NCBI RefSeq assembly: GCF_004137345.1
Contig: NZ_SDWV01000011.1
Coordinates: 1 to 64,000, forward strand
Length of the DNA stretch: 64,000 bases
Direction: 5' to 3'
DNA from: Nocardioides zhouii
GTDB taxonomy: Bacteria; Actinomycetota; Actinomycetes; Propionibacteriales; Nocardioidaceae
In this document: positions 3,186-50,816 of the stretch, one piece after another
Layout: every line of letters starts with the position of its first letter
Numbering within the stretch: the stretch's first letter is position 1
Notes under the pieces: generated by a model
Told to the model about the DNA's origin: nothing
What the model saw: only the letters and a program-made list of their open reading frames with translations
Database searches by the model: none
Position numbers and translations under genes: made by a program

Positions 3186-3219
3186 GATTCCCCCGTGGTC
3201 TCGGGTCCACGGGGGAATC
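3186..3219 (-). terminator. Hairpin downstream of displaced tRNA-Thr 3' end
   Basis: A 13-bp perfect stem (GATTCCCCCGTGG / CCACGGGGGAATC) closes on the loop TCTCGGGT, and CTTTATT follows it on the minus strand. It corresponds position by position to the hairpin at 50734-50767, with the same loop. The stem differences are compensatory (A-T for G-C pairs), so both copies keep pairing. This is the old tRNA-Thr terminator that moved with the displaced 3' end. Confidence 0.75.
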
Positions 3220-3268
3220 AGAGCCGCCTCACGGAATCGAACCGAGGACCTAGTCATGACGAGTGACT
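3218..3268 (-). repeat. att copy: displaced 3' part of tRNA-Thr
   Basis: A 51-bp segment identical to 50766-50816 except for one base (G at 3258, T at 50806; this is position 37 next to the anticodon on the minus strand). It holds the tRNA anticodon arm, variable loop, T arm and acceptor 3' strand. The tRNA 5' half is absent: after 3268 the sequence diverges. The crossover of the island insertion must lie within these 51 bp. Confidence 0.9.
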
Positions 3269-36955: not shown

Positions 36956-37009
36956 GGAAGCGATGTCACGCCTCTGCCTGTGACCGTATCGACGCGGCAC
37001 AGGAAGGTC

Positions 37010-38248
37010 ATGAACGAGAACAAGAAGAGTCCTCCCAAGAGCAGCGTGGGACGTCCGGCCCTCCCCCTGGGAACCACCGGTCAGCAGTGGGTCACCCACC
37101 GTCCCCAAGGCGGCTACATCGCCGCGGTGTGGGTCCGCACCCCCCGAGGCAAGCACAAGCAGGTCACCGCGTCCGGGCAGACCAAGGGCGCTGCCCGCCG
37201 CAAGCTCCAGTCGAAGCTCGACAAGATCGTCGACACGCCGTTCGAGGGCGTGCAGCCGACCTGGACGGTCACGGACCTGGCCGCCCACTGGGAGGAACAC
37301 AAGGCGCGCGCCGGGCATGCCCGTCGTCGCGTCCCGCTGACCGCCCAGACGCGGTGGGGTTACCACAGCGAGATCGTCCGCATCATCACGCCGGCCATGG
37401 GTGACCTGCGGCTCCACGAACTCTCCATCGCGCTGCTCGAGTCCCTATTGGCCGATCTCGAGGACACCGGCCTCTCCACCGTCCGAGCACGCTCGGTGCT
37501 GCACGCGATGCTCGAGCTCGCGGTCCGCGACGGAGCCATCGCGTCCAACCCGACCAAGTACGTCGCTCCCCCACTGCGCGAGCCGAAGGAAGTCGAAGCC
37601 CTGACGATCCCGATGGCTCGGCACCTGCTCCGGGTCGTGAGCCCCGAGTACCGGCGCAAGCCGGGATTTCGAGGACCCACCCGCGACCTCCATGACTTCT
37701 GCATGGTCGCCCTGGGCACCGGGGCGCGCATCAGCGAGATCCTCGCCGTGACCCACGAGCTGGTCGACCTGGACAGCGATCACCCGACCATGACGATCTC
37801 CGGGACGATGATCGAGCCTCGCACCGGCTACATCGTGCGCCACCACCGTCAGGAAGCGACCAAGAACAACCAGGTCCGGACGCTGCTGCTCCCCGACGCC
37901 GTCGCCGAGATCCTGCGTGAGCGTCGAGACGGATCGCGCTTCACCGCACCCACCGACCCGGTCATCGCATCGAATCAGGGCACCTTCATGTGGGCCTCAA
38001 ACATCCGCGAGCGGCTTCGCAAGGCCATCGCAGACGAACCCACCTTAATCGGCGTCACTCCTCACGCCTTGCGCAGGACGGTCGCGAGCCTCATCGCGTA
38101 CGACGCCGGGCTCGACGCCGCTCGCTTGCAGCTCGGCCACAGCCTTGCCGGGTCGACGCCTCTCCGGTCGTACGTCGTCCACCGACAGCAGGTACCCGAC
38201 CACCGGGCCATCCTCGACTGGTTGTTCCACGACGTCGAACAGTCGTGA
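37010..38248 (+). CDS. Tyrosine-recombinase integrase (intact)
   Basis: A 412-residue protein. I choose ATG 37010 over GTG 36980 because it carries the same GGCACAGGAAGG leader as two small genes downstream. It has an N-terminal arm-binding domain (ASGQTKGAARRKLQSKL), a core-binding domain, and catalytic residues Arg (GTGARISEIL), Lys (QEATKNNQVRTLLL), H-x-x-R (PHALRRT), His (LGHSLAG) and Tyr (LRSYVVH). It resembles the broken integrase at 1678. It is the likely enzyme for tRNA-Thr insertion of the island, although it lies 12.5 kb from the nearer att copy. I see no tRNA fragment beside it. Confidence 0.88.
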   Translation: MNENKKSPPKSSVGRPALPLGTTGQQWVTHRPQGGYIAAVWVRTPRGKHKQVTASGQTKGAARRKLQSKLDKIVDTPFEGVQPTWTVTDLAAHWEEHKARAGHARRRVPLTAQTRWGYHSEIVRIITPAMGDLRLHELSIALLESLLADLEDTGLSTVRARSVLHAMLELAVRDGAIASNPTKYVAPPLREPKEVEALTIPMARHLLRVVSPEYRRKPGFRGPTRDLHDFCMVALGTGARISEILAVTHELVDLDSDHPTMTISGTMIEPRTGYIVRHHRQEATKNNQVRTLLLPDAVAEILRERRDGSRFTAPTDPVIASNQGTFMWASNIRERLRKAIADEPTLIGVTPHALRRTVASLIAYDAGLDAARLQLGHSLAGSTPLRSYVVHRQQVPDHRAILDWLFHDVEQS

Positions 38249-39216: not shown

Positions 39217-39663
39217 TCAACCGCCCCAGATGTGACTCCACATCCGCGTCCAGAAGCGATTGGTCCGCTTATTCTCCTGCTCCTGCGAGATGGCGGCTTC
39301 CGAAGCTTCGTGTGCAGCTTCGGGCTCATCCCGGGTCCGAAGTGCGCGGCGATCCCGAGCGCGATTGGCGGCGATCTGTTCCTTCGTGAACTGGTACGAC
39401 CACGTGACTCGTCCGCGCTCGATGATGTAGTGCGACTGACAAGGGAGCGTCCAGTTGCCGATCGATGGCCGCATCGAGATGTCGCGGCCATTGAAGGCAA
39501 ACGACCATTGAGCCGGCGACAGAGGCGTGAAGACTTCCTCTCCGCAGCCGCACGCGCACAGGTGAGCGCACGTGGTGAACTCGATGGAGACGTACAAGAC
39601 ACCGGGCTCCAGAGTGCTCGGGAAGCTTTCGACGAACTCCGGAGCGAGGGTCGCGACTCTCAT
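39217..39663 (-). CDS. DUF6527-like zinc protein of the ubiquitin-like cassette
   Basis: A 148-residue protein. Metal-ligand candidates are CAHLCACGCGEEV near residue 32-42 and PCQSHYII near 77, with Trp residues between (SPAQWSFAF). This fits the DUF6527 pattern of CxCGC...CxSH. The C-terminus is charged, then aromatic (NRFWTRMWSHIWGG), perhaps an amphipathic membrane-contact helix, and ends in Gly-Gly. It overlaps the E1-like gene by ATGA. DUF6527 proteins are found with bacterial ubiquitin-like operons. Their role is unsettled. Confidence 0.7.
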   Translation of the reverse strand: MRVATLAPEFVESFPSTLEPGVLYVSIEFTTCAHLCACGCGEEVFTPLSPAQWSFAFNGRDISMRPSIGNWTLPCQSHYIIERGRVTWSYQFTKEQIAANRARDRRALRTRDEPEAAHEASEAAISQEQENKRTNRFWTRMWSHIWGG

Positions 39664-40904
39664 GCCGCGTCCACCGGCCCCTCACTGGCCCCAGACTCGT
39701 CCGGCTCGTCTGCCTCGAGGTCGTCGTCGACCGTGCCGCTTTCGTTGGCGATGTGGTTGGTGAACATCGAGTACGTGGCAAAGTCTTCGGACGTGGCGTC
39801 GGCGTAAAAGCCGAGGTGCCGCTTCCAACGACCAATAGCGAGAACCGCGTTTAGCGCGTTGAGGTCGGCGACCTGGATGTTGCGTCCATAGTCGTCTCTT
39901 TCCTCGGCGGGCTTGGGGATGCGGGCGAGCGCATCCTCGACGTCGGCACCCGGGCCGGCGAACACCATGCGGAGCAGGCCCGAGAGCCTGGAGTCGATCT
40001 CTTCGATGCCCATGCCGATGTCGATGAACGCGATGTGGCGCTCGATCAGGTGGGCAGCGATTGCGGGCTTCATGGTCGCGTCGTCCATCGCAAGGAACAC
40101 GAAGGTTGCGTCGTCGAGAAGGTTGAGGTTGTCGTCAGTGATGTAGGTCTGCTCGGTGTCGATGCCGGTGTGCATGCGCCCGTAGAGGTCGTAGTAGTAG
40201 TCGACTTTCGGGGGCCGCGCACGCAGCTGCTCGAGGGTCGGGGCACCAGGGGCGCGGAACGCGTTGTGGTTGTCGAACACGTCACCGTCGATGATCAGGA
40301 TGCTTGCTACGGGCGTTTTGGCGACCTGGTCGAGGATGTAGGCGCCGGTACCGCCGAGGCCGACGATGGCGATCCGCTGGCTCCAGAAGACCTGCGCCAT
40401 GACCGAGAGGCCAGCACGGGTGGTGGCGGTGTCGCGGTAGCGGAATGGCACGTTGTCCTCGACCTGTTGCCAGGCTGCGCCCGGGGTGGCGGTCACGGTG
40501 TCGTCGAGCGCCATCGCAGGGTGGGCGAGCATGCGAACGTAGGCGGTGACCTTCTCGTACTCGCTCGCATATCCCTCGGGACCGGGCTTGCTTGAGAGCA
40601 TGAGGTTTGCGTTCAAGTCAGGGGAGATGGCCAGCGCTTCCGCGCTCGCAAAGGTGAACGGCGCTGCGTCCTCGTTGCACGGCGTGGACCCGCCGAACCA
40701 GATGCGGTGGTCGCTGCCGTGGACGATGTTGTCGCCGCTGACGGTGACGGGGTAGGCGAGGAACCCGTACGCGACCCCCTTCTCCGTGGTCACGTACGGG
40801 ACCCGCTTCACGACCAGGTGGCCGTTGACGAGGCTGATGTCGTGTCCGTCGTCGATAAGACGACGGACGTCCGGATCAGGACCGAGAGGTGCGGTAGACA
40901 TCGA
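39660..40904 (-). CDS. E1-like ThiF adenylyltransferase without a ThiF-domain cysteine
   Basis: A 414-residue protein starting at ATG 40904, which overlaps the Ubl gene by 29 bp. Residues 1-160 resemble the DUF6791 region found before ThiF domains (VHGSDHRIWFGGSTPC, SSKPGPEGYASEYEKVTAYV). The ThiF domain from about residue 176 has the nucleotide motif AIVGLGGTGAYIL, DGDVFDNHNAFR with the Arg finger, Lys in RPPKVDYY and the adenylating Asp in AMDDATMKP. No Cys occurs in the ThiF part; the only Cys is near residue 75. It may adenylate the Ubl but could not form the usual E1 thioester. Confidence 0.82.
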   Translation of the reverse strand, partial: SMSTAPLGPDPDVRRLIDDGHDISLVNGHLVVKRVPYVTTEKGVAYGFLAYPVTVSGDNIVHGSDHRIWFGGSTPCNEDAAPFTFASAEALAISPDLNANLMLSSKPGPEGYASEYEKVTAYVRMLAHPAMALDDTVTATPGAAWQQVEDNVPFRYRDTATTRAGLSVMAQVFWSQRIAIVGLGGTGAYILDQVAKTPVASILIIDGDVFDNHNAFRAPGAPTLEQLRARPPKVDYYYDLYGRMHTGIDTEQTYITDDNLNLLDDATFVFLAMDDATMKPAIAAHLIERHIAFIDIGMGIEEIDSRLSGLLRMVFAGPGADVEDALARIPKPAEERDDYGRNIQVADLNALNAVLAIGRWKRHLGFYADATSEDFATYSMFTNHIANESGTVDDDLEADEPDESGASEGPVDAA

Positions 40905-41199
40905 ACACCATCTTGTTCTTGACCTTGACGCTGTGCTTCGGGCTGAGCGAACCCTCGTGCTTCTCGTTGGGCCCGCGGGTGTACGCGACGGTGACCGCCT
41001 CACCTTCACCGATCGGCTGGCCGGGGTAGGCGAGGTTGACGACCTCCTCGTAGGAAATCGTCTTCTCTGCCCACCGGTGCGGGCGCGTGTTCACGACGAT
41101 CCTGACCGTCCGGTCCTCGTGCCCGGGCTTCTGAGCCGCGCGCGCTGCGTCAAGTCCTTCGGTGGGCTCTGCCTGGGGTGCTGCGTCGGGTGCCTTCAC
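40876..41199 (-). CDS. Ubiquitin-like protein, single Multi_ubiq domain
   Basis: A 107-residue protein from GTG 41199 with a strong AGGAGGG site. Residues 1-28 are a flexible Ala/Pro-rich tail. The rest is one Multi_ubiq-type beta-grasp domain: VRIVVNTRPHRW, ISYEEVVNLAYPGQP, EAVTVAYTRGPNEKHEGSL and SVKVKNKMVFDVYRTSRS. It has no C-terminal Gly-Gly and ends TSRS, so conjugation would need processing or another chemistry. It is the first gene of the Ubl-E1-DUF6527 operon, and the genes overlap tightly. No E2-like or JAB gene is beside it. Confidence 0.82.
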   Translation of the reverse strand: MKAPDAAPQAEPTEGLDAARAAQKPGHEDRTVRIVVNTRPHRWAEKTISYEEVVNLAYPGQPIGEGEAVTVAYTRGPNEKHEGSLSPKHSVKVKNKMVFDVYRTSRS

Positions 41200-41248
41200 G
41201 GCGACCCTCCTATTCTCTCGAGACTGCTGACCGCACCGTATTTGGCAC

Positions 41249-41305
41249 AGTGCTCGATATGTCGAGCACTGCTAACATAACACACGTGACCGACATGTCG
41301 AGCAA
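41249..41305. promoter_or_regulatory. Two palindromic operators between Ubl and XRE genes
   Basis: AGTGCTCGATATGTCGAGCA (41249-41268, arms extend to CT at 41270) has 9-bp perfect arms around TATG. GTGACCGACATGTCGAGCAA (41286-41305) repeats it with 16 of 20 matching bases and a 10-bp perfect core palindrome CGACATGTCG. The sites are 36 bp apart in the 127-bp gap and would suit the XRE repressor encoded at 41327. Confidence 0.75.
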
Positions 41306-41326
41306 TGCAGTTTTTGTGGAGCGACC

Positions 41327-41701
41327 TTGAGCGCCGCGCCCTCGGTGAACGTGAAGGCGTTGCATGCAGCCTTGGATGCGGCCCGCGAGGCAGAGGATTT
41401 GTCCTGGCGACAGCTGGCGAAGGAACTTGGGGTGAGCGCCTCGACGATCTCGCGGATGTCGCAGGGGTTGAGACCAGACGTAACGGCCTTCGCGGCCATG
41501 ACGACCTGGCTGAGGATGTCGGCGGAAGACTTCTACGAGGGCGCAGCGGCCTCGGACGAAGACCCTGATCTCGTTGCGCAACTGGGTCCGTTGCTACGAG
41601 CCCGGAAAGATCTGAGCGAGAAGGATGTCTCCTACCTTGAAGAGGTCATCGCAGCAGCCGCCAAAAGGTTCCAGTCCGAGCGCCGGGAAGGGTCGACGTA
41701 G
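41327..41701 (+). CDS. XRE-family repressor
   Basis: A 124-residue protein from TTG 41327 with GGAG 6 bp upstream. The helix-turn-helix is SWRQLAKELGVSASTISRMS, followed by an unassigned helical C-terminus. It is divergent from the Ubl operon and overlaps the ImmA-like protease gene. XRE/ImmA pairs control mobile elements and stress responses: the protease cuts the repressor on a signal. Here the operators lie next to the Ubl promoter, so the Ubl cassette is the probable target. Confidence 0.83.
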   Translation: MSAAPSVNVKALHAALDAAREAEDLSWRQLAKELGVSASTISRMSQGLRPDVTAFAAMTTWLRMSAEDFYEGAAASDEDPDLVAQLGPLLRARKDLSEKDVSYLEEVIAAAAKRFQSERREGST

Positions 41702-42266
41702 GGGCGGCTGGACCCAAGCCAAGATGCGTGAGGTCGCTGCCGAGGAGCGCAGCGAACTGGGCCTCGACGTTCATGACGCGTTCGACCCATACGCGCTGGC
41801 AGACGCCCACGGCATCCCGGTCTACTCGCTTACCGATCTACTCGAACGGGGGCTCGGCGCCGAGGCCCATGAGCATTTCCATGCATCAAGCACCCAATCG
41901 TGGTCTGCCGCGCTCATCCCGTTGGGCAGCGCCCGTGTCATTGTCGAGAACGATGCCCACGTTTCCGTGCGTCGCCGCAGCAACATCGCACACGAACTCG
42001 GGCACCACCTGCTCGAGCACTCCTTCGACAACGTCATCCTCGGCGATGACCACAAACGCCAGTTCGACGCGACCCAAGAGAGGCAGGCGCACTTCATCTC
42101 GGGTGAACTTCTCATTCCGGACCAGGCCGCTCGCCGGGCGGCGTTCGCGGACTGGGACAACCTTCGGGTAGCTGAAGCGTTCAACGTCAGCCCTCAGTTC
42201 GCACAGATGCGGATGGCCGGTGCCCGCGTGATCGCTAAGAGGTCCGCGACCAAGCGGAGGTACTGA
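41625..42266 (+). CDS. ImmA/IrrE-type metalloprotease
   Basis: A 213-residue protein if it starts at ATG 41625, which overlaps the XRE gene. ATG 41724 would give 180 residues. The zinc motif is IAHELGHHLLEH, with the third ligand probably Glu in ATQERQAHFISGELLIP. That last stretch is typical of ImmA/IrrE (COG2856) proteases. It likely cleaves the XRE repressor encoded just upstream, relieving repression of the divergent ubiquitin-like operon. Confidence 0.85.
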   Translation: MSPTLKRSSQQPPKGSSPSAGKGRRRGGWTQAKMREVAAEERSELGLDVHDAFDPYALADAHGIPVYSLTDLLERGLGAEAHEHFHASSTQSWSAALIPLGSARVIVENDAHVSVRRRSNIAHELGHHLLEHSFDNVILGDDHKRQFDATQERQAHFISGELLIPDQAARRAAFADWDNLRVAEAFNVSPQFAQMRMAGARVIAKRSATKRRY

Positions 42267-42590: not shown

Positions 42591-42758
42591 CTACTGAGTA
42601 GCAGCTGGCCGCTCTACCGGTGCTTCAGCGGTGCTGATGGCTGCTTCCGCAACTCGAAGCCGGTACCAGGTCGGTTGATGACGAGTGGGAAGTTCGGCTA
42701 ACTGGCTGCGTGACTTGGCGCTCAGCTGAAGCAACCACTCGCGATTCGTGTTCGTCAT
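42591..42758 (-). CDS. 55-residue ORF coupled to the antiviral deaminase
   Basis: MTNTNREWLLQLSAKSRSQL leads into AELPTRHQPTWYRLRVAEAA and ends at TAG 42591. Its ATG overlaps the deaminase stop in ATGA, the strongest evidence that it is translated. It is basic in the middle with two Trp. I know no family for it. It could be a small regulator or partner of the deaminase. Confidence 0.5.
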   Translation of the reverse strand: MTNTNREWLLQLSAKSRSQLAELPTRHQPTWYRLRVAEAAISTAEAPVERPAATQ

Positions 42759-44331
42759 CCCACGCCATCCTCACCCGTTGGCTCGTCTTCGGTCTTACTA
42801 TGCACTAGCCCTCCGACAGTCTCTAGGACGTCCCCCGTGTCGGACCGGAGCTCCAACGCGATCGGGATCTGCAACTCGGTCTCCTGAGCAACACCGATCG
42901 GATCCGCGTCGGCAAGTCGCATACGTGAAGCTGCTGGCGACCAAGAGTCGAACCGACCATCTTGGAGCCGATCGCGATTAATGCTCCTGAACACTTGAGG
43001 GTAGATCGTCCAAGACGTACCAACAAAAGGCTCAACCGAGACGCCAACAGTTTGGCCGTGCACCGCATGCGCAAGTTCGGTCGCGTACATGTCTTCGGCA
43101 AGGGACTTGGGATAGGGATCGACATACACAATACGGCTAACCCCGCTCGAAATGATGAGCCGCATACACATGTGGCATGGATACGCTGTCGTGTATAGGA
43201 TCGCGCCCCGAATGGATGTGGAGCCACGCGCAGCCTGCGTTATTGCCGACATCTCGGCATGAACGATTCGTCCGAACTCGATCAAGCTCAGGACGCGCGA
43301 GTTCTTAAGTCGACCATCTTTGTCCTCAGAAAGGGCTACTTCCAAGCGATCTTCGCTCAGCTCCTTCTTCATTCGGTCAGACAAATGGCCACTATGCGAT
43401 AGCGCGTCGAGCACCTCTCGCAGAGCCCGACGAGTTGCTCTCTTGTTAAAGTCATAACCCAACTGGAAGTCACGATTGTCGGTTAGATCGTCGCTCCAAT
43501 ACTCGCCGCCACCCGCCTTCGGTACTTCATTGCAACCGACTGCCAGGACCTCCCCAACTTCGCTAGCTATGACTGCTCCGACCTGACGGCCCGCGTCGGA
43601 CGACCGTAGAGAAGAGGCGAACGCCAAGAACATCGCGGCTTCATCCTTGGTGGGCGTAATGAAGGGCTTCCCAAAGATGAGACCTACGAAGCGCCCCAAC
43701 TCTTCGCGCACTGATCCCACTTCCAGTTCAGCGAAGTAGTCCGCCCGGCAGTAGGCGTCGCGAACGTGTTGGCCGTATGGGCGGTCTGGATCGAGTTGAT
43801 CACGCTCTATCAACCTAGCGACTTCAGCCTCCAGTCCGCCCGAGCCGGGGTCTGCGTCCTGGAGTTCACCCCTTAACCGGGTCCGTCGTTTCTCCACAGG
43901 GGCATTGAGTCCCAATAGAACGAACCTGCTTCCGTATGTCGCCCGAAGGAGGTCCACTTCCTCCTCATGCTTCAGCGACCACAGGATCCAAGCTACGCGC
44001 TGGGAATGCCCTTCGAAACCCATCCGATCGCGTCGTTCGAGTATCTCAGCGATGGCATATCCTGCGACGGCATCGTTTCCGTATTGCCTACGAAGCCGAT
44101 CGCCCGCTCCCATTCGAGACTCATAGTATTTCTCGTTGTCGGCGCTGTCGGACAACTCTTCACCGAGAGCCTTTTCCAGGAGTCGGCTGAGCCGCACGAT
44201 CTCGGTGCCATATCCGTACTGATGCAACTCCTCCTCGAGGAGTTGCGTGGCCCTTTCAAGGTCGGTCCCGATTGGGGAGACGAGGCCTATAACTATTTCG
44301 AAACAGTGAACTCTTGGACGTCAATTAGCAT
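42755..44331 (-). pseudogene. Antiviral dCTP/dCMP deaminase-type gene with N-terminal frameshift
   Basis: The long frame gives 490 residues from a TTG at 44227. The C-terminal deaminase has the zinc site HAEMSAI (His 323, Glu 325) and PCHMC (350-354). Upstream in the same frame, without a start codon, the DNA encodes FEIVIGLVSPIGTDLERATQ, the P-loop-like start of two-domain antiviral deaminases (kinase-like plus deaminase, AvcD/DCD type). A good start (ATG 44331 after GGGGGAA) reads MLIDVQEFTV in another frame and stops at 44293. One base lost near 44296-44305 would explain this. Base use is visibly more AT-rich than flanking genes. Confidence 0.75.
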
Positions 44332-44624: not shown

Positions 44625-47591
44625 TCAACCCACGCCAGCTCTGAACTCGTCGTACGTGTCCGCTAGGTGGTGCAGCAGCATCGACTGGAACTCGGGCTTG
44701 GCAAAGAAGAGATCAAAGAGGTGCCCGTTCTTCTCATGTCGGGCAACCATGAGCTCCTTGACCTTGTTCGCTAGGACCAGTTCGTACTGACTGCGGTCGT
44801 TGTTGAGCGCGACGGTCTTCATGTCTTCGTCTGCCTTGAGCTCGGCCTTCTGCTGGTCGATCCAGATCTTGTCTGGCTCGCCGAGCTCGGCGCCGTACTT
44901 GTCGTTCATCACTGCGATCAAGGCAGACAGCTTGTCGAGGACGGGATCGGCTTGCTTGCCCTTGCCCTCCCCCGGCAGCGCAACGCCGGACTCGTCTGCA
45001 GCGGTCAAGGTGATGGCGGTGTCGCCGGTCACGGCGATGCGTAGGTGGGTGAGCTGGACCGATGATGAGAGTTGAGGCATCGGGTCGGAGTCGCTGGCAG
45101 GCAGGTCGGCGAGCAGGAGCTTGCCGTAGAGGAAGAGTTCTTCGAGGTCGGTATCGGTGAACGGCATGACTTGGGCAACGAATGAGTAGGCGCGGCAGAA
45201 GTGGTTGAGTGTCCCGCGGAAGGGCTCCTGTGCGTCTTCGTCGAGGGAGGCGAACCGGCCCACCGCAGGGTTGAGGTTGGCGTAAATCACTGACTGTTGC
45301 GCGGGGTCGTCGGACAGGAGGGCCTGGACCGTGGCGCGGACTTCCTCGGAGGACAACACGCCAGCTATGCGGAGGTCGTGCTCCATCGTGTAGAGCACGT
45401 TGGGGTCGGTCGGCGTCGCGAAGGACTCCTCGAAGAACGGCTCGAACGCCTCCTGGATCTCCTCCGCGGTGTTGGCGAAGTCCAGCACGAAGGTGTCTAA
45501 CTTGCCCGGGTGAGTGCGGTTCAGCCGCGACAGCGTCTGCACGGCTTTGACGCCAGCGAGCTTCTTGTCGACGTACATGGTGTGCAGAAGCGGCTCATCG
45601 AACCCGGTCTGATATTTCTCGGCCACGACCAGCACCTGGTACTCGTCGTGGAACCGCTCGGGCAGCTGGGTCTCGCCGAACCCGTTCATGAACGCCTCGG
45701 TGTAGCTCAGCTCCGGCGCGTCGGGATTCTTCACCTCTCCGGAGAAGGCGACCAGCGCACGGATCGGTGCCTCGCCAGTGTCGTACCCCTTGCGCTTGAT
45801 ATAGGCGTCGATCGCTTGCTTCGTGCGTACGGCGTGGAGCCGGGACCTAGTCACGACCATCGCTTTCGCGCGGCCGTCGATCTTCGCGGCGGTCTTCTGC
45901 CGGAAGTGCTCGACGATCACCTCGGCCTTCTGCTCCAACTGGTAGGGGTGCAGCGAGACGAACCGCGCCAACGCCGCCTTGGCCTTCGACGCTTCCATCT
46001 CGGGGTCGTGGCGGGGCTCGGTGTTGGCGAGCTTGTAGTAGGTCGCGTACGTCGCGTAGTTGGCCAGGACGTCAAGAATGAAGCCCTCGTCGATGGCCTG
46101 GCGCATGGAGTAAGTGTGGAACGGTCGCCGCTGTCCGTCGGAGTCGAGCTGCCCGAAGGTCTCCAGCGTCTTTGGCTTCGGCGTAGCGGTGAAAGCGAAG
46201 AACGAGAGGTTCTGCTGCTTGCCCCGGTTGCGCGCGCTGGCGAGCAACACGTCCTCTGGTTCGTCGGCTGCTTCCGCCGCAGCCTCTGAAGCTTCGGCCG
46301 CCTCCAGTGCCGCTGCGCTTGGCACCCCCAACACTTTCTTCAGCTTCGACACCGCTTCACCGGAGGTCGAGGAATGCGCCTCGTCCACGATCACCGCGAA
46401 CCGGCTGCCCACGACGGCATCAGCAGCCTCAGCGATCACCGGGAACTTCTGCAGCGTCGTGATGATGATCCGGGCGGCGTTGCCTTCCAGCGCCTCGCGC
46501 AACTGGCTGGAGTGCTTGTCGACGCGCACGATCGTGCCCGGCGTGTGGTCGAGCCCGGCAACCGTCTCCTGAAGCTGCCGATCGAGCACCTTCCGGTCGG
46601 TGATCACCACGACCTTGTCGAAGACCGGCTGGTCATCGGCCCCATGCAGCCGACTCAGCGAATGTGCGGTCCAGGCGATCGTGTTGGACTTCCCCGAACC
46701 GGCGGAGTGCTGGATGAGTCGATCAGTACCAGCACCATCCGCCAGCGTCGCGGCGACGATCGACTGCACGGCGTGCCACTGCTGGAAGCGAGGGAACAGC
46801 ACCCGTCCGTCCCCCTCGTGGACGAACGTTGCGAGCAGATCGAGGAACGCGTCGCGCTGCCAGACTTGCTCCCACAGGTACGCCGTCTGGTAGCCATCGC
46901 TTGTCGGGTTCCCCGCGCCCCCGGGCCGCCCCGCTCCGGCCGAGCCGGTGTTGAACGGCAGGAAGACCGTTTCGTCACCCGCGAGTCGGGTTGTCATGGC
47001 CACCCGGTGCGGGTCCACGGCGAAGTGGACCAGAGTGCGCTTCGCGAAGATCAGGTCGTGCCGGTTGCGATCGGTGCGGTACTGAGACATCGCGTGCTCG
47101 ATCGTCTGATGCGTCAGTGGGTTCTTAAGCTCCGCGGTTGCGACGGGGATGCCGTTGACCACGAGAGTCACGTCAAGCGAGTCATGCGGACGCGACTCCG
47201 AGTGGTGCAACTGGCGCACGACAGCGAGCCGGTTGGCGGCATAGCGCTCGCCCAGCTCGGGCGTGAGGTTGTTGACGGGTCGGAACCACGACATTCGCAC
47301 GGTCACCCCGGAGTCCTTTACGACCCCGCGCAGCACGCTGATCGTGCCGCGGTGGTTGAGCTCTCCAGCCAGACGGATCAGGAACTTGCCCTGCGCGTGC
47401 TCCTCGCCACCGTGACGCTGGACCAGCTGCTGCCACGCCTTCGGCTGAGACGTCCGGATGAAGGCGATTACCTCGTCTCCGAACAAACCCAGCTGCTGGT
47501 CGTACGCCGACGGGCTGGCGCCATGCCAGCCGTTGGCCAGCAAGTGGGCCTCGATGTTGGCCTCGAACGCAGACTCTTGATGGACGCTCAC
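44625..47591 (-). CDS. hsdR: Type I restriction enzyme, endonuclease/translocase subunit
   Basis: A 988-residue protein from a GTG start. The N-terminal nuclease has the PD-(D/E)xK pattern LDVTLVVNGIPVATAELKNP. The helicase motor has Walker A (HSAGSGKSNT), the DEAH box (VIVDEAHSS) and FFAFTATPKP, and a helical C-terminus follows. It cuts unmodified DNA after ATP-driven translocation with HsdM and HsdS. It overlaps hsdS by GTGA at the end of the hsdM-hsdS-hsdR operon. The gene is intact, but it depends on HsdM, which has an amber codon. Confidence 0.93.
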   Translation of the reverse strand: MSVHQESAFEANIEAHLLANGWHGASPSAYDQQLGLFGDEVIAFIRTSQPKAWQQLVQRHGGEEHAQGKFLIRLAGELNHRGTISVLRGVVKDSGVTVRMSWFRPVNNLTPELGERYAANRLAVVRQLHHSESRPHDSLDVTLVVNGIPVATAELKNPLTHQTIEHAMSQYRTDRNRHDLIFAKRTLVHFAVDPHRVAMTTRLAGDETVFLPFNTGSAGAGRPGGAGNPTSDGYQTAYLWEQVWQRDAFLDLLATFVHEGDGRVLFPRFQQWHAVQSIVAATLADGAGTDRLIQHSAGSGKSNTIAWTAHSLSRLHGADDQPVFDKVVVITDRKVLDRQLQETVAGLDHTPGTIVRVDKHSSQLREALEGNAARIIITTLQKFPVIAEAADAVVGSRFAVIVDEAHSSTSGEAVSKLKKVLGVPSAAALEAAEASEAAAEAADEPEDVLLASARNRGKQQNLSFFAFTATPKPKTLETFGQLDSDGQRRPFHTYSMRQAIDEGFILDVLANYATYATYYKLANTEPRHDPEMEASKAKAALARFVSLHPYQLEQKAEVIVEHFRQKTAAKIDGRAKAMVVTRSRLHAVRTKQAIDAYIKRKGYDTGEAPIRALVAFSGEVKNPDAPELSYTEAFMNGFGETQLPERFHDEYQVLVVAEKYQTGFDEPLLHTMYVDKKLAGVKAVQTLSRLNRTHPGKLDTFVLDFANTAEEIQEAFEPFFEESFATPTDPNVLYTMEHDLRIAGVLSSEEVRATVQALLSDDPAQQSVIYANLNPAVGRFASLDEDAQEPFRGTLNHFCRAYSFVAQVMPFTDTDLEELFLYGKLLLADLPASDSDPMPQLSSSVQLTHLRIAVTGDTAITLTAADESGVALPGEGKGKQADPVLDKLSALIAVMNDKYGAELGEPDKIWIDQQKAELKADEDMKTVALNNDRSQYELVLANKVKELMVARHEKNGHLFDLFFAKPEFQSMLLHHLADTYDEFRAGVG

Positions 47592-48835
47592 GACGGGATC
47601 CCGCTTCCTGCCGTGGTTACGTCTAGTTCGCCAGCCACCGCCGCGGCAATAAGGGAGTACTTGAACTCAAGCAGAAGGTCGATGCATTGGGCCAGGGCGG
47701 CAAGTCCCGACTTCCGAGAATCAGCACGCTCCGCAACAACTTCGACGGCGAGGCGCTGGAGCTCAACCTCGGGAACAACGATCGAAAGATCTTGAATGTC
47801 CGGAAAGTAGATCGTCTTGTGGGTCGAGCCGGTGGCAAGGAATCCGAGCAGGTAGGGGCGCATCACGCGCAGCGAGTACAGCAGGAACTCAGGGAGCAGT
47901 TCAGGTCCACAAGTCCAAGTCACGAAGTCCTGGCTGGTTGCCATGTCGTTGCCCATGATCACGGCGAAGCCCGCCGATGCAGTCCGACTAAGCGCCACGG
48001 TTCGGGCCGGATGAACTACTGCCGCACTGTTGGCGAGTCCAAGTTCGCTTATCTGGATGCTGGTCTGATCAATCACGTCGATCTCGTCGCGGCGGAACCG
48101 ATGAACGTCCCCTGTGGTGAGCCAAGGGATAGTGCAGTTCAACCAATAGTCGGAGATAGACCTGCTGGGGGTATGCCCCGTTCCCATCCGAGCGAGTTGA
48201 CCCAACCTACGGACTTTGCGCGATGCGCCACCCACACGCGCCCATGGCAACTCAAACTCCGCCTGCCGCTTCTCGTCGAGTCCCAGGATGGCGGCTCGTT
48301 GTACGGACTCGAATGCCGCCTGAATGGCTTCCATCTCCTTATGGCGGGCGGCGATGACTCGGTCAATCCGGTCAACTCGATCGTCGAGGAAGGCGGCCAC
48401 CCGTCGTTGCTCGTTGATGTCAAGCTCTGGCACCGGGATTGCCTTCATGTCATCTTGGGTCAACTTGTCACGTGTCGATCCCGAGATGACGCGACCGTAG
48501 TCAGTGGCGTTTAGCGCGTGGGTGAGGAATCGAGGCTCCACTCCACGCGGCCGCAAGACATGCATGTGGTTGTTTACCCAGACTGGCCCGTCGACGTGGA
48601 ACGCGACGCTCTTGGCTCGGTCGAAAAATGGCGCTCCGTCTTCACCGACAAGCACAAGCTCTTCGTCAAAGAGGTGCTGATCGACCCAGCCGACTACATC
48701 GTTGGCGCCCCAGTAGGGTACGTCGCCGGGACGATGCGATCGTTGCTCCGCGCTGAGGGGCACGCGTTGCCCGTCAAGGCACTCGACTAGGCGCCGCAGG
48801 GGTACCGGCTTCACAACCCGAGCCCCTTCATCCAT
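47588..48835 (-). CDS. hsdS: Type I restriction enzyme, specificity subunit
   Basis: A 415-residue protein with two target-recognition domains separated by conserved helices. The first ends in PVPELDINEQRRVAAFLDDR followed by a long helix. The second ends in VVPEVELQRLAVEVVAERAD. The two domains set the two halves of a split DNA target. It overlaps the end of hsdM by 25 bp and the start of hsdR by 4 bp. The recognition sequence cannot be read from the protein. Confidence 0.9.
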   Translation of the reverse strand: MDEGARVVKPVPLRRLVECLDGQRVPLSAEQRSHRPGDVPYWGANDVVGWVDQHLFDEELVLVGEDGAPFFDRAKSVAFHVDGPVWVNNHMHVLRPRGVEPRFLTHALNATDYGRVISGSTRDKLTQDDMKAIPVPELDINEQRRVAAFLDDRVDRIDRVIAARHKEMEAIQAAFESVQRAAILGLDEKRQAEFELPWARVGGASRKVRRLGQLARMGTGHTPSRSISDYWLNCTIPWLTTGDVHRFRRDEIDVIDQTSIQISELGLANSAAVVHPARTVALSRTASAGFAVIMGNDMATSQDFVTWTCGPELLPEFLLYSLRVMRPYLLGFLATGSTHKTIYFPDIQDLSIVVPEVELQRLAVEVVAERADSRKSGLAALAQCIDLLLEFKYSLIAAAVAGELDVTTAGSGIPS

Positions 48836-50589
48836 GCCTGGATCTCACCCTCGAGACTCTTTATCTCGGATGCGATCTCCTCAACCGGACGGGGCGGGGT
48901 GTAGACGTAGAAGTGCCGATTGAATGGAATCTCCCAGCCCAGCTTGGTCTTGGCGTGGTCGATCCAGGCGTCGGGCACGTGGGGCCGGATTTCGTCGATC
49001 AGATGCTGCTCGGCCGCATCAATAAGCACCTTGGACCTCTCTCCCTCGCCGAGGTCCAGGAAGCCAGCCGGCAACGGAACGTTCTCCTGATCCCGCAGCT
49101 TTGCCTCCGGCTGCGGCTTGCCCTTCTTGAGCACTGGCTCGCCCGTCTCGTCGACGAGTGGCCGTTCGACGGTAATCCGCTGGCACCCGAAGACCTCCCG
49201 ATCGAGCACCTTCACCCGCGGGTCGCCGGCAAACTCGCCGTGCGCGCCGCCGTACAGCTTCGCGATCTCGCCAATCGCGTCGCTGGTGAGTTCTTTGCGC
49301 TTGTCGCCGAGCGACTTCCGCATCTTGGTGCCCATTCCCCGGGCGTCGATAAGCTACACCAGACCTTGTTCTGCCTCCGCCTTGTCGTTGGTGAGGATCC
49401 ACACGTAGGTGGAGATGCCGGTGTTGTAGAACATCTGGTCCGGCAGCGCGACGATGCCCTCGAGCCAGTCGTTCTCCAAGATCCAGCGGCGGATTTCCGA
49501 CTCCCCGGATCCCGCCTGACCGGAGAACAACGGCGATCCCGACAGGACGATGCCGACCCGCGAGCCGGTCGGCTTCATGTGCGAGAGCATGTGCTGAAGG
49601 AAGAGCAGCGACCCGTCGGAGACCCGTGGCAGCCCGGCGCCGAAGCGACCGTTGAAGCCGAGTTTGGCGTGTTCGTCCTTGATCGGTGGGGCGTAGCCCT
49701 TCCAGTCCACGCCGTAGGGCGGGTTGGCGAGGATGAAGTCGAACTTGTCGGTCGCGAATGCGTCGGCTGTGAGGGTGTTGCCCTGCTGCATCCGATCGAC
49801 CGAGATGCCTTGCATCATGAGGTCGGACTGCGCGATCGCCCACGTCTCGTCGTTGAGCTCCTGGCCTGCGACCTGCACGATTGCACCGGGGTTGAGCTCC
49901 TCGATCCGGTGCAGCGCCCCCATAAGCATTCCACCAGTGCCAGCCGCAGGGTCGTAGACGGTGCGGACTGGCTTGGGGTTCTCGATGAGCTCGGCGGCAG
50001 CCTTACCAGTCAGCAGCAGGTCGACCATGAGCCGGATGACCTCGCGCGGGGTGTAGTGCTCACCAGCCGTCTCGTTGCTCATCTCGGAGAACTTGCGGAG
50101 CAGTTCCTCGAAGACGTAGCCCATCGACTCGTTGCTCACGACCTCCGGACGTAGGTCGAGGTCCGCGAAGTCTGCCACCACGCCGTACAGAATCCCGGCC
50201 CGATCCATTCGGGCGATCTTGTCGTCAAAGTTGTAGGCCTCGATCACGGCATAGGCATCGCGCGAGAGCCGGCGAATGTAGCCAGCCAAGTTGTCGGCCA
50301 GGTTCTTGTCGTCGTTGAGCATCGTCGCGAATGTCAACGGCGACGTGTTGTAAAAGCCCTGCCCAGACACAGACTTGAGCAGCATGTCCTCGCCAGGACC
50401 AATGTCCTTGAAGCCTTTGGACTTCACCAGGACCGCGTCCTTCGTCGGAGCAAGCACTGCGTCCATCCGGCGGAGCACCAGCAAGGGAAGCATCACCGCG
50501 CCGTACTCGTGCTGCTTGAAGGTGCCGCGAAGCTTGTCGGCCACCTTCCATACGAATGCGACCTTGTCGGCAAAGCCCTGCGGCGCCAT
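48811..50589 (-). pseudogene. hsdM: Type I DNA methyltransferase with in-frame amber codon
   Basis: The reading frame from ATG 50589 gives 411 residues with the N6-adenine methyltransferase motifs DPAAGTGGM and NPPYG, then stops at TAG 49356-49354. The same frame continues at once with LIDARGMGTKMRKSLGDKRK to 48811, the conserved HsdM C-terminus. The context QGLV-stop-LIDARG, where HsdM usually has V-Q-LIDAR, points to a CAG-to-TAG change. Full length would be 592 residues. An ATG 18 bp after the stop (49335) could restart a 174-residue C-terminal piece, so a split but working HsdM is possible. Confidence 0.85.
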
Positions 50590-50733: not shown

Positions 50734-50767
50734 GACTCCCCCGGGGTCTCGGGTCCCCGGGGGAGTC
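50734..50767 (-). terminator. tRNA-Thr terminator
   Basis: A 13-bp perfect stem GACTCCCCCGGGG / CCCCGGGGGAGTC with loop TCTCGGGT begins 2 bp after the tRNA 3' end. It was supplied by the incoming element: the corresponding older hairpin is at 3186-3219 with the same loop and compensatory stem changes. Confidence 0.8.
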
Positions 50768-50816
50768 AGAGCCGCCTCACGGAATCGAACCGAGGACCTA
50801 GTCATTACGAGTGACT
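50766..50816 (-). repeat. att copy inside the intact tRNA-Thr
   Basis: The 51-bp partner of 3218-3268, with one mismatch at 50806. It covers the tRNA from the anticodon stem to just past its 3' end, so insertion rebuilt a whole tRNA gene. Confidence 0.9.

Follow-up and report, generated by a model that had tools for sequence, protein, structure and literature searches.

We identify three overlapping minus-strand genes at 39217-41199 of a 64,000-nucleotide stretch of Nocardioides zhouii DNA (contig NZ_SDWV01000011.1, positions 1 to 64,000; "the window" below means this whole stretch), which encode, in order, a ubiquitin-like protein (Ubl), an E1-like protein and a DUF6527 protein. It is near certain that these genes are a three-gene bacterial ubiquitin-like operon of a widespread, already described kind. 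We propose that they form a Bub-like protein-conjugation cassette of a JAB-less subtype, in which a cysteine-free oxyester relay would run with the DUF6791 domain of the E1 as a stand-in for the E2, and we assign this mechanism as a whole a probability of about 0.5. Judged from sequence, the parts are in place: the Ubl, an E1 with an intact adenylation core, the DUF6527 protein and a divergent pair of helix-turn-helix (HTH) and M78 genes. The missing conserved cysteine is a trait of the DUF6791-type family and not of the window alone, and the purpose of the cassette is likely phage or stress defence. The features on which the argument turns are as follows.

40876-41199, minus strand: Ubl (BubA-like), 107 residues, GTG start, one Multi_ubiq domain (PF14452, E 5e-12)
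39660-40901, minus strand: E1-like protein, 413 residues from ATG, with DUF6791 (about residues 10-158) and ThiF (structurally about 165-390)
39217-39663, minus strand: DUF6527 protein (BubE-like, a label given here), 148 residues (PF20137, E 4e-22)
40876-40901, minus strand: overlap of the Ubl and E1 genes, 26 nt
40677-40679, minus strand: codon of E1 Cys75, the only cysteine of the window E1
39888-39890, minus strand: codon of E1 Tyr338, which lies in the crossover loop ahead of helix 345-363 and is a candidate for replacing the E1 cysteine
40593-40595, minus strand: codon of DUF6791 Ser103, in a motif that is FSxKP in the family and LSSKP here, candidate acyl acceptor

A cassette family without a conserved E1 cysteine

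Pfam profile searches recover Multi_ubiq, DUF6791-ThiF and DUF6527 where an initial annotation, made from the sequence alone, had placed them. In the E1, DUF6791 (PF20590) is matched at E 3e-41 and ThiF (PF00899) at E 1e-8, in a scan that used the longer GTG-start form, and the protein exceeds the NCBIfam cut-offs for PRK06153.1-4 and PRK06153.1-3. All three frames are open. A start codon at exactly a 26-nt overlap with the Ubl gene recurs in 86 of 90 Ubl-adjacent cassettes, the window included (85 ATG, 1 GTG), and we therefore take the E1 to start at the ATG at 40901; the 29-bp overlap first annotated is corrected to 26 nt, while the ATGA overlap of the DUF6527 and E1 genes (39660-39663) stands.

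Profile searching with the E1 across genome contigs, one genome per species, yielded at least 595 pattern matches and at least 585 confirmed relatives, and 115 plasmid records carry relatives. Besides that of the window, the 92 cassettes compared here comprise 11 plasmid loci hand-picked from 60 of the 115 records and the best 80 of the at least 585 relatives. Of the 92, 90 have an adjacent Ubl and 89 have a DUF6527 gene downstream; all 11 plasmid loci have the order Ubl, E1, DUF6527. The cassette is not new, since its gene set fits the type 6e variant described in 2006 and it has these many relatives, and the minimal cassette of the initial annotation is a common subtype, not a peculiarity. 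Four DUF6791-type E1 relatives also occur on contigs of a viral collection (L115-L118); a scan of the viral contigs with a single E2 protein, a query that detects just close relatives, gave no match.

The sole cysteine of the window E1, Cys75, lies within DUF6791, and the ThiF part is cysteine-free, as first annotated. Across the 92 cassettes ThiF has no conserved cysteine column, the best (271) being Cys in 41; 22 of the E1s have no cysteine from residue 150 on, and four have none at all. The initial annotation had named a catalytic cysteine near residue 75 as a candidate that could overturn its reading. A hidden thioester system with Cys75 as its catalytic residue would have in its favour that this is the only cysteine of the window E1 and that 78 cassettes share it; given that the other 14 have Arg, His, Leu, Val or Phe there, and that four E1s are cysteine-free, we reject Cys75 as a catalytic residue and regard such a system as very improbable. 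With no conserved cysteine in 92 cassettes, the chemistry should differ from thioester transfer, in line with the non-canonical chemistry first suggested.

We compared this family with 21 related loci whose E1 carries a JAB domain (JAB-type loci), seven of them (L095, L100-L105) hand-picked from E1-query matches and the remaining 14 obtained from E2 searches. Seven JAB-type E1s share one invariant cysteine, C284 of L095, which aligns with window Ala271 and lies in the strand preceding the adenylation Asp, outside the crossover loop. One Nocardioides plasmid JAB-E1 locus, L102:2383-4464, is without the loop tyrosine, the E2 serine motif and an annotated DUF6527 gene, and is possibly a different or degenerate subtype.

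Residues of the adenylation type are retained in the DUF6791-type family: D205, D207, R216 and K232 in all 92 cassettes and N213 in 91. For N213, R216 and some of the GGTG region this conservation is biased upward, as the patterns used to find 80 of the loci include them. We take these five residues to have adenylation roles. Tyr338, Ser103, His65, Lys105 and Lys117 are outside the locus-finding patterns. Tyr338 is found in 92 of 92 cassettes, in the loop that presumably is the place where ThiF and MoeB have cysteine, and this always-present tyrosine appears to sit where an E1 cysteine would be. A crossover-loop tyrosine is also found in 20 of the 21 JAB-type E1s, the exception being L102, which is also without the E2 motif [WF]S.H (aromatic-Ser-x-His). 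The PDB entry 9eav holds BubCD(D104A/Y370F) with BubB and BubA; by alignment, D104 of BubCD is apparently the JAMM aspartate and Y370 the crossover-loop tyrosine.

The E1 model (pLDDT 90) has Citrobacter BubCD, 9ea4, as its best match by VIA (Z 24.9, root-mean-square deviation 2.1, 217 aligned residues), followed by ThiF 1zud (Z 23.8), with ThiF, MoeB and MccB at Z of about 21-24. Profile searching gives the same leading match, BubCD at E 2.6e-10, with the tRNA dehydratase TcdA at E 1.6e-9, and hhalign aligns the ThiF part of one operon type with that of the other at E 1.6e-19. In a viral fold library ThiF-type matches lead and weak mixed ones come later, among the best 50 of 701. The matches listed by Foldseek and VIA for the whole E1 model cover the ThiF part.

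The window Ubl ends in ...RTSRS, confirming the absence of a terminal Gly-Gly from this single Multi_ubiq domain, and the last residue is Ser in all 90 DUF6791-type cassettes with an adjacent Ubl. It matches PDB 9cd2 (ZDHYS365), a multi-ubiquitin domain protein, at E 3e-6; the last Ubl domain of that 222-residue multi-Ubl chain aligns with the single-domain window Ubl and is also Ser-ended, and 9cd2 probably comes from a DUF6791-type operon. Eight JAB-type Ubls that we compared differ from this pattern. Three end in Gly (L100, L101, L104), two that are fused have Gly directly before the E2 (L095, L103), L096 and L105 have Gly plus two or three further residues, and L102 ends in Ala.

The DUF6527 proteins keep Cys36, Ser67 and His78 in 93 of 93 cases (87 DUF6791-type, 6 JAB-type). 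The window protein has a cysteine cluster of C36, C38, C40 and C75 and a candidate pair Ser67-His78; cysteines 38, 40 and 75 are missing from some JAB-type members. This conservation suits a Ser-His protease no less than a plain zinc protein, and a Ser-His protease is reportedly part of Bub operons. The zinc protein of the initial annotation keeps its family assignment and may well work via Ser67 and His78, three of the four cysteines being lost in some JAB-type members and Cys36 kept. The invariant Cys36 also makes a Cys-enzyme reading of DUF6527 possible. The DUF6527 model (pLDDT 92) has a best VIA Z of 3.1, and its comparison with PDB folds gave no match at E up to 0.001.

The proposed relay and its alternatives

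A nearby E2 or JAB gene would have been the other objection to the initial reading, and none was found beside the cassette. Pfam matches no E2 or JAB family among 20 scanned open reading frames (ORFs) of the window, the cassette genes included (10 scanned at E up to 1 and 10 at E up to 0.001; the remaining ORFs were not scanned singly). In the whole genome Prok-JAB has a single match, on a different contig (C42), and Prok-E2_B and Prok-E2_E have none, other E2 families not having been searched there; both E2 models were empty in control genomes, Prok-E2_E matched other genomes, and Prok-E2_B was without a positive control. Across the family, our own profile of eight E2 sequences, run at E up to 10 on the 91 DUF6791-type loci with as much as 4-6 kb of flank (less near contig ends), gave no match, and Pfam Prok-E2_E matched none of seven whole genomes that carry DUF6791-type cassettes. 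Genome searches with Prok-E2_E gave matches in 3 of 396, 6 of 386 and 3 of 385 genomes. One DUF6791-type locus, L083, contains a JAB-like match (E 0.006).

An upstream ORF with [WF]S.H is found in 19 of the 21 JAB-type loci, a count re-read from complete upstream ORFs, in which E2 presence is partly selection because E2 queries had led to 14 of the 21. Among the eight rows of the first E2 profile, L102 was included by gene position only and L103 with a short Ubl tail; the second profile leaves out seven weak loci (L106-L111, L114) and has three wrong rows (L113, L121, L122), fused proteins that were reduced to their Ubl part.

DUF6791 itself is strongly conserved at a few polar residues: His65 in 92 of 92 cassettes, Ser103 in 91 (Cys in the remaining one), Lys117 in 91 and Lys105 in 90. 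The predicted order, with a helix, then a strand meander and then a further helix, is compatible with a UBC-like domain. We tentatively suggest that DUF6791 is a cysteine-free E2-like domain carried on the E1, with the Ser-ended Ubl adenylated and moved to targets via esters on Tyr338 and Ser103, a possibility to which we give clearly less than even odds. We put forward the E2 reading of DUF6791 as a hypothesis, since profile and family searches fail to support homology. The "without E2" of the initial annotation accordingly holds for a separate gene beside the cassette, and may be wrong functionally, DUF6791 being a possible stand-in.

In the relay that we propose, the ThiF domain would adenylate the carboxylate of the C-terminal serine of the Ubl, with no trimming needed. 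Transfer would proceed without a thioester, Tyr338 being the E1 residue for the oxyester step or for its positioning. DUF6791, fused at JAB's place on the E1, would substitute for the missing E2, with Ser103 as the acyl acceptor and His65, Lys105 and Lys117 assisting, and the Ubl would be handed on to targets. The DUF6527 protein would release the Ubl again via Ser67 and His78, and the CapH/CapP-like proteins would hold the operon silent until DNA damage. Ye et al. are said to have described oxyester intermediates in Bub systems.

Several findings weigh against this relay. Tyr338 and Tyr370 lie 9 and 14 residues before the matched Leu-Asn, so that their equivalence needs a 5-residue gap, and hhalign pairs Tyr338 with a different tyrosine, 8 residues upstream of the loop Tyr (this upstream tyrosine is absent in L104 and L105). 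The JAB-type loci do not couple loop tyrosine and E2 motif throughout, as L099 has the loop Tyr and VSFH for [WF]S.H. The comparison of DUF6791 with Prok-E2_E by hhalign is not significant (E 0.05, probability about 1%), 40 DUF6791 members gave no Pfam E2-family match at E up to 10 (a test limited by the HMMER filters, which remove most matches above E 0.1), and DUF6791 has no sequence relatives in PDB, the best E being 0.22. The case for an E2 comes down to three points: the order of secondary-structure elements, the lack of an E2 gene and the aromatic-or-Leu-Ser-x-basic motif. For DUF6527, conservation alone is insufficient to establish a Ser enzyme, because Cys36 is as invariant as Ser67. 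Iyer et al. guessed at a JAB-like role for the corresponding N-terminal domain (PMC1779556), and phage protection by Bub operons is described as not demonstrated in a later source (PMC13373217).

DUF6791 could instead be a JAB-analogous hydrolase or a Ubl-handling domain, with the E1 transferring the Ubl from the adenylate or via Tyr338. It takes JAB's position in the E1 fusion and is without a sequence link to E2, and its residues His65, Ser103, Lys105 and Lys117, all invariant or close to it, would suit a Ser hydrolase too. Against this, hhalign gives DUF6791 no link to JAB either (E 0.48), the cassette already holds a candidate deconjugase in DUF6527, and, with no Bub-kind E2 found in any of the 91 loci, the cassette would have no other part for that step. 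We consider this alternative unlikely, though it deserves to be taken seriously.

Improbable, in our judgement, is the view that no protein is conjugated at all, and that the Ubl is adenylated to serve as a sulfur carrier, in a nucleotide adduct or in signalling, as in MccB-, ThiF- or MoeB-like systems. The near fold matches to those three proteins, the closeness of TcdA to BubCD in the profile search and the absence of an E2 gene from the cassette speak for it. Sulfur-carrier proteins, however, end in Gly and this Ubl in Ser, no sulfur-metabolism genes are found among the 20 scanned ORFs of the window, and the DUF6527 gene and the HTH/M78 pair agree with Bub-type operons. Least probable of all is a functionless, decaying remnant: the cassette does lie in an apparent mobile island, but its frames are open and both the family-invariant residues and the conserved 26-nt overlap are intact. 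The oxyester relay with DUF6791 as E2 stand-in remains our preferred reading.

Relation to known systems

Type 6e operons comprise, according to Iyer et al., a Ubl of one to three repeats and a small metal-binding protein, and in a sporadic, mobile variant the E1 bears an uncharacterized non-JAB N-terminal domain (PMC1779556). We found no difference in gene content between this variant and the window, which has both the single-domain Ubl beside the E1 and DUF6791 replacing JAB on the E1 (Pfam gives no JAB match in the window E1 protein). Equating the type 6e domain with DUF6791, and the small protein with DUF6527, is a matching made here. The signature printed for the small protein is C-x(3)-C-x(35-38)-H-x(2)-C (PMC1779556). 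The window DUF6527 protein follows its first half only, having C36-x(3)-C40 and then C75-x(2)-H78 rather than H-x(2)-C, whereas the Synechocystis protein of L100, from a prototype operon of that paper and annotated as DUF6527, matches the whole signature.

The Citrobacter Bub system (BubA/BubB/BubCD; 9ea4, 9ea5, 9ea8, 9eae, 9eav) shares with the window the Multi_ubiq Ubl, the fold of the E1 domain and a crossover-loop Tyr. It has, however, a Prok-E2_E protein (BubB) and JAB (BubC), whereas the window is without both and carries DUF6791; we do not class the window as Citrobacter-type Bub because the BubB E2 (Prok-E2_E) was not found. A plasmid homologue of the Citrobacter type, L095, has a Ubl-Prok-E2_E fusion, then a JAB-ThiF fusion, then DUF6527, and neighbours that look CapK/CapS-like, where those of the window look CapH/CapP-like.

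Bacterial Ubls or Ubl-like proteins are also activated in defence by Bil and by Cap2 of type II CBASS. Cap2 is Cys-based, and the window E1, unlike Bil and Cap2, is without a conserved Cys. A review places the cysteines of the Bil E1 and E2 at Cys417 and Cys138 (PMC11354881). Bub operons occur in hundreds of bacteria, and 219 of 544 carry CapW or CapH plus CapP (PMC13373217). DUF6791 and DUF6527 are named in none of the top-ranked literature matches, from which we do not claim their absence from print.

Genomic setting and significance

The genes and sites around the cassette are listed below.

41248-41308, no strand: operator-like site, with a palindrome at 41248-41271 of two perfect 10-nt arms and a second copy
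41327-41701, plus strand: HTH regulator (CapH-like), start codon uncertain (HTH_31, E 2e-7)
41625-42266, plus strand: M78/ImmA-IrrE metallopeptidase (CapP-like), HELGH motif (PF06114, E 1e-17)
42755-44227, minus strand: anti-phage dCTP deaminase-like protein (PADLOC dCTPase, E 6e-128)
44625-50589: type I restriction cluster
36980-38248: integrase

The HTH gene and the M78 peptidase gene, the latter with HExxH, adjoin the cassette and are transcribed away from it. In PADLOC the peptidase has capP as its best match (E 3e-12); the HTH regulator matches capH weakly (E 4e-4), and RmrA models score higher. Between the Ubl gene and this pair, a copy of 41250-41272 recurs at 41286-41308 with 83% identity. 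CapP-like genes are found in at least 35 of the 91 DUF6791-type loci, WYL genes in at least 1 and CapK/CapS-like genes in at least 6, these counts being based on few queries, and 5 of the 11 plasmid loci have an annotated ImmA/IrrE (4) or WYL (1) gene close upstream. In three proteobacterial loci a small DUF2188 gene separates the HTH/ImmA pair from the Ubl gene (L005:5485-5718, L011:4535-4756, L101:2094-2321).

The cassette probably sits in an island of about 47.6 kb, given the integrase and a 40-nt direct repeat of a tRNA-Thr 3' end at 50766-50805 and 3218-3257. The dCTP deaminase-like gene scores 376.9 bits against the NCBIfam model antiphage_deaminase, below the cut-off of 400. In the restriction cluster, two ORFs of the type I methyltransferase at 48811-50589 match 5-413 and 563-657 of one 661-long model, and this hsdM may be split. 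Elsewhere in the island, 4601-28899 holds genes of aromatic-catabolism type (for a Rieske oxygenase, an extradiol-type dioxygenase, a FAD hydroxylase, an acetaldehyde dehydrogenase, an FAA hydrolase, and proteins of the PPDK_N and PEP-utiliser kinds), and a 767-residue ORF at 31251-33554 matches neither Pfam (E up to 0.001) nor PHROG (E up to 0.01).

This cassette has hundreds of counterparts, and the useful part of this work is the 92-member comparison, through which an E1 without cysteine becomes a set of residue-level claims: a tyrosine of the E1, a serine of DUF6791, a Ser-His pair of DUF6527 and a Ser-ended Ubl. Should DUF6791 turn out to act as the E2, these cassettes would count as very small ubiquitin-type systems whose cascade runs wholly on oxygen esters. 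Three overlapping genes would then encode a complete ubiquitin-type conjugation machine that has no catalytic cysteine.

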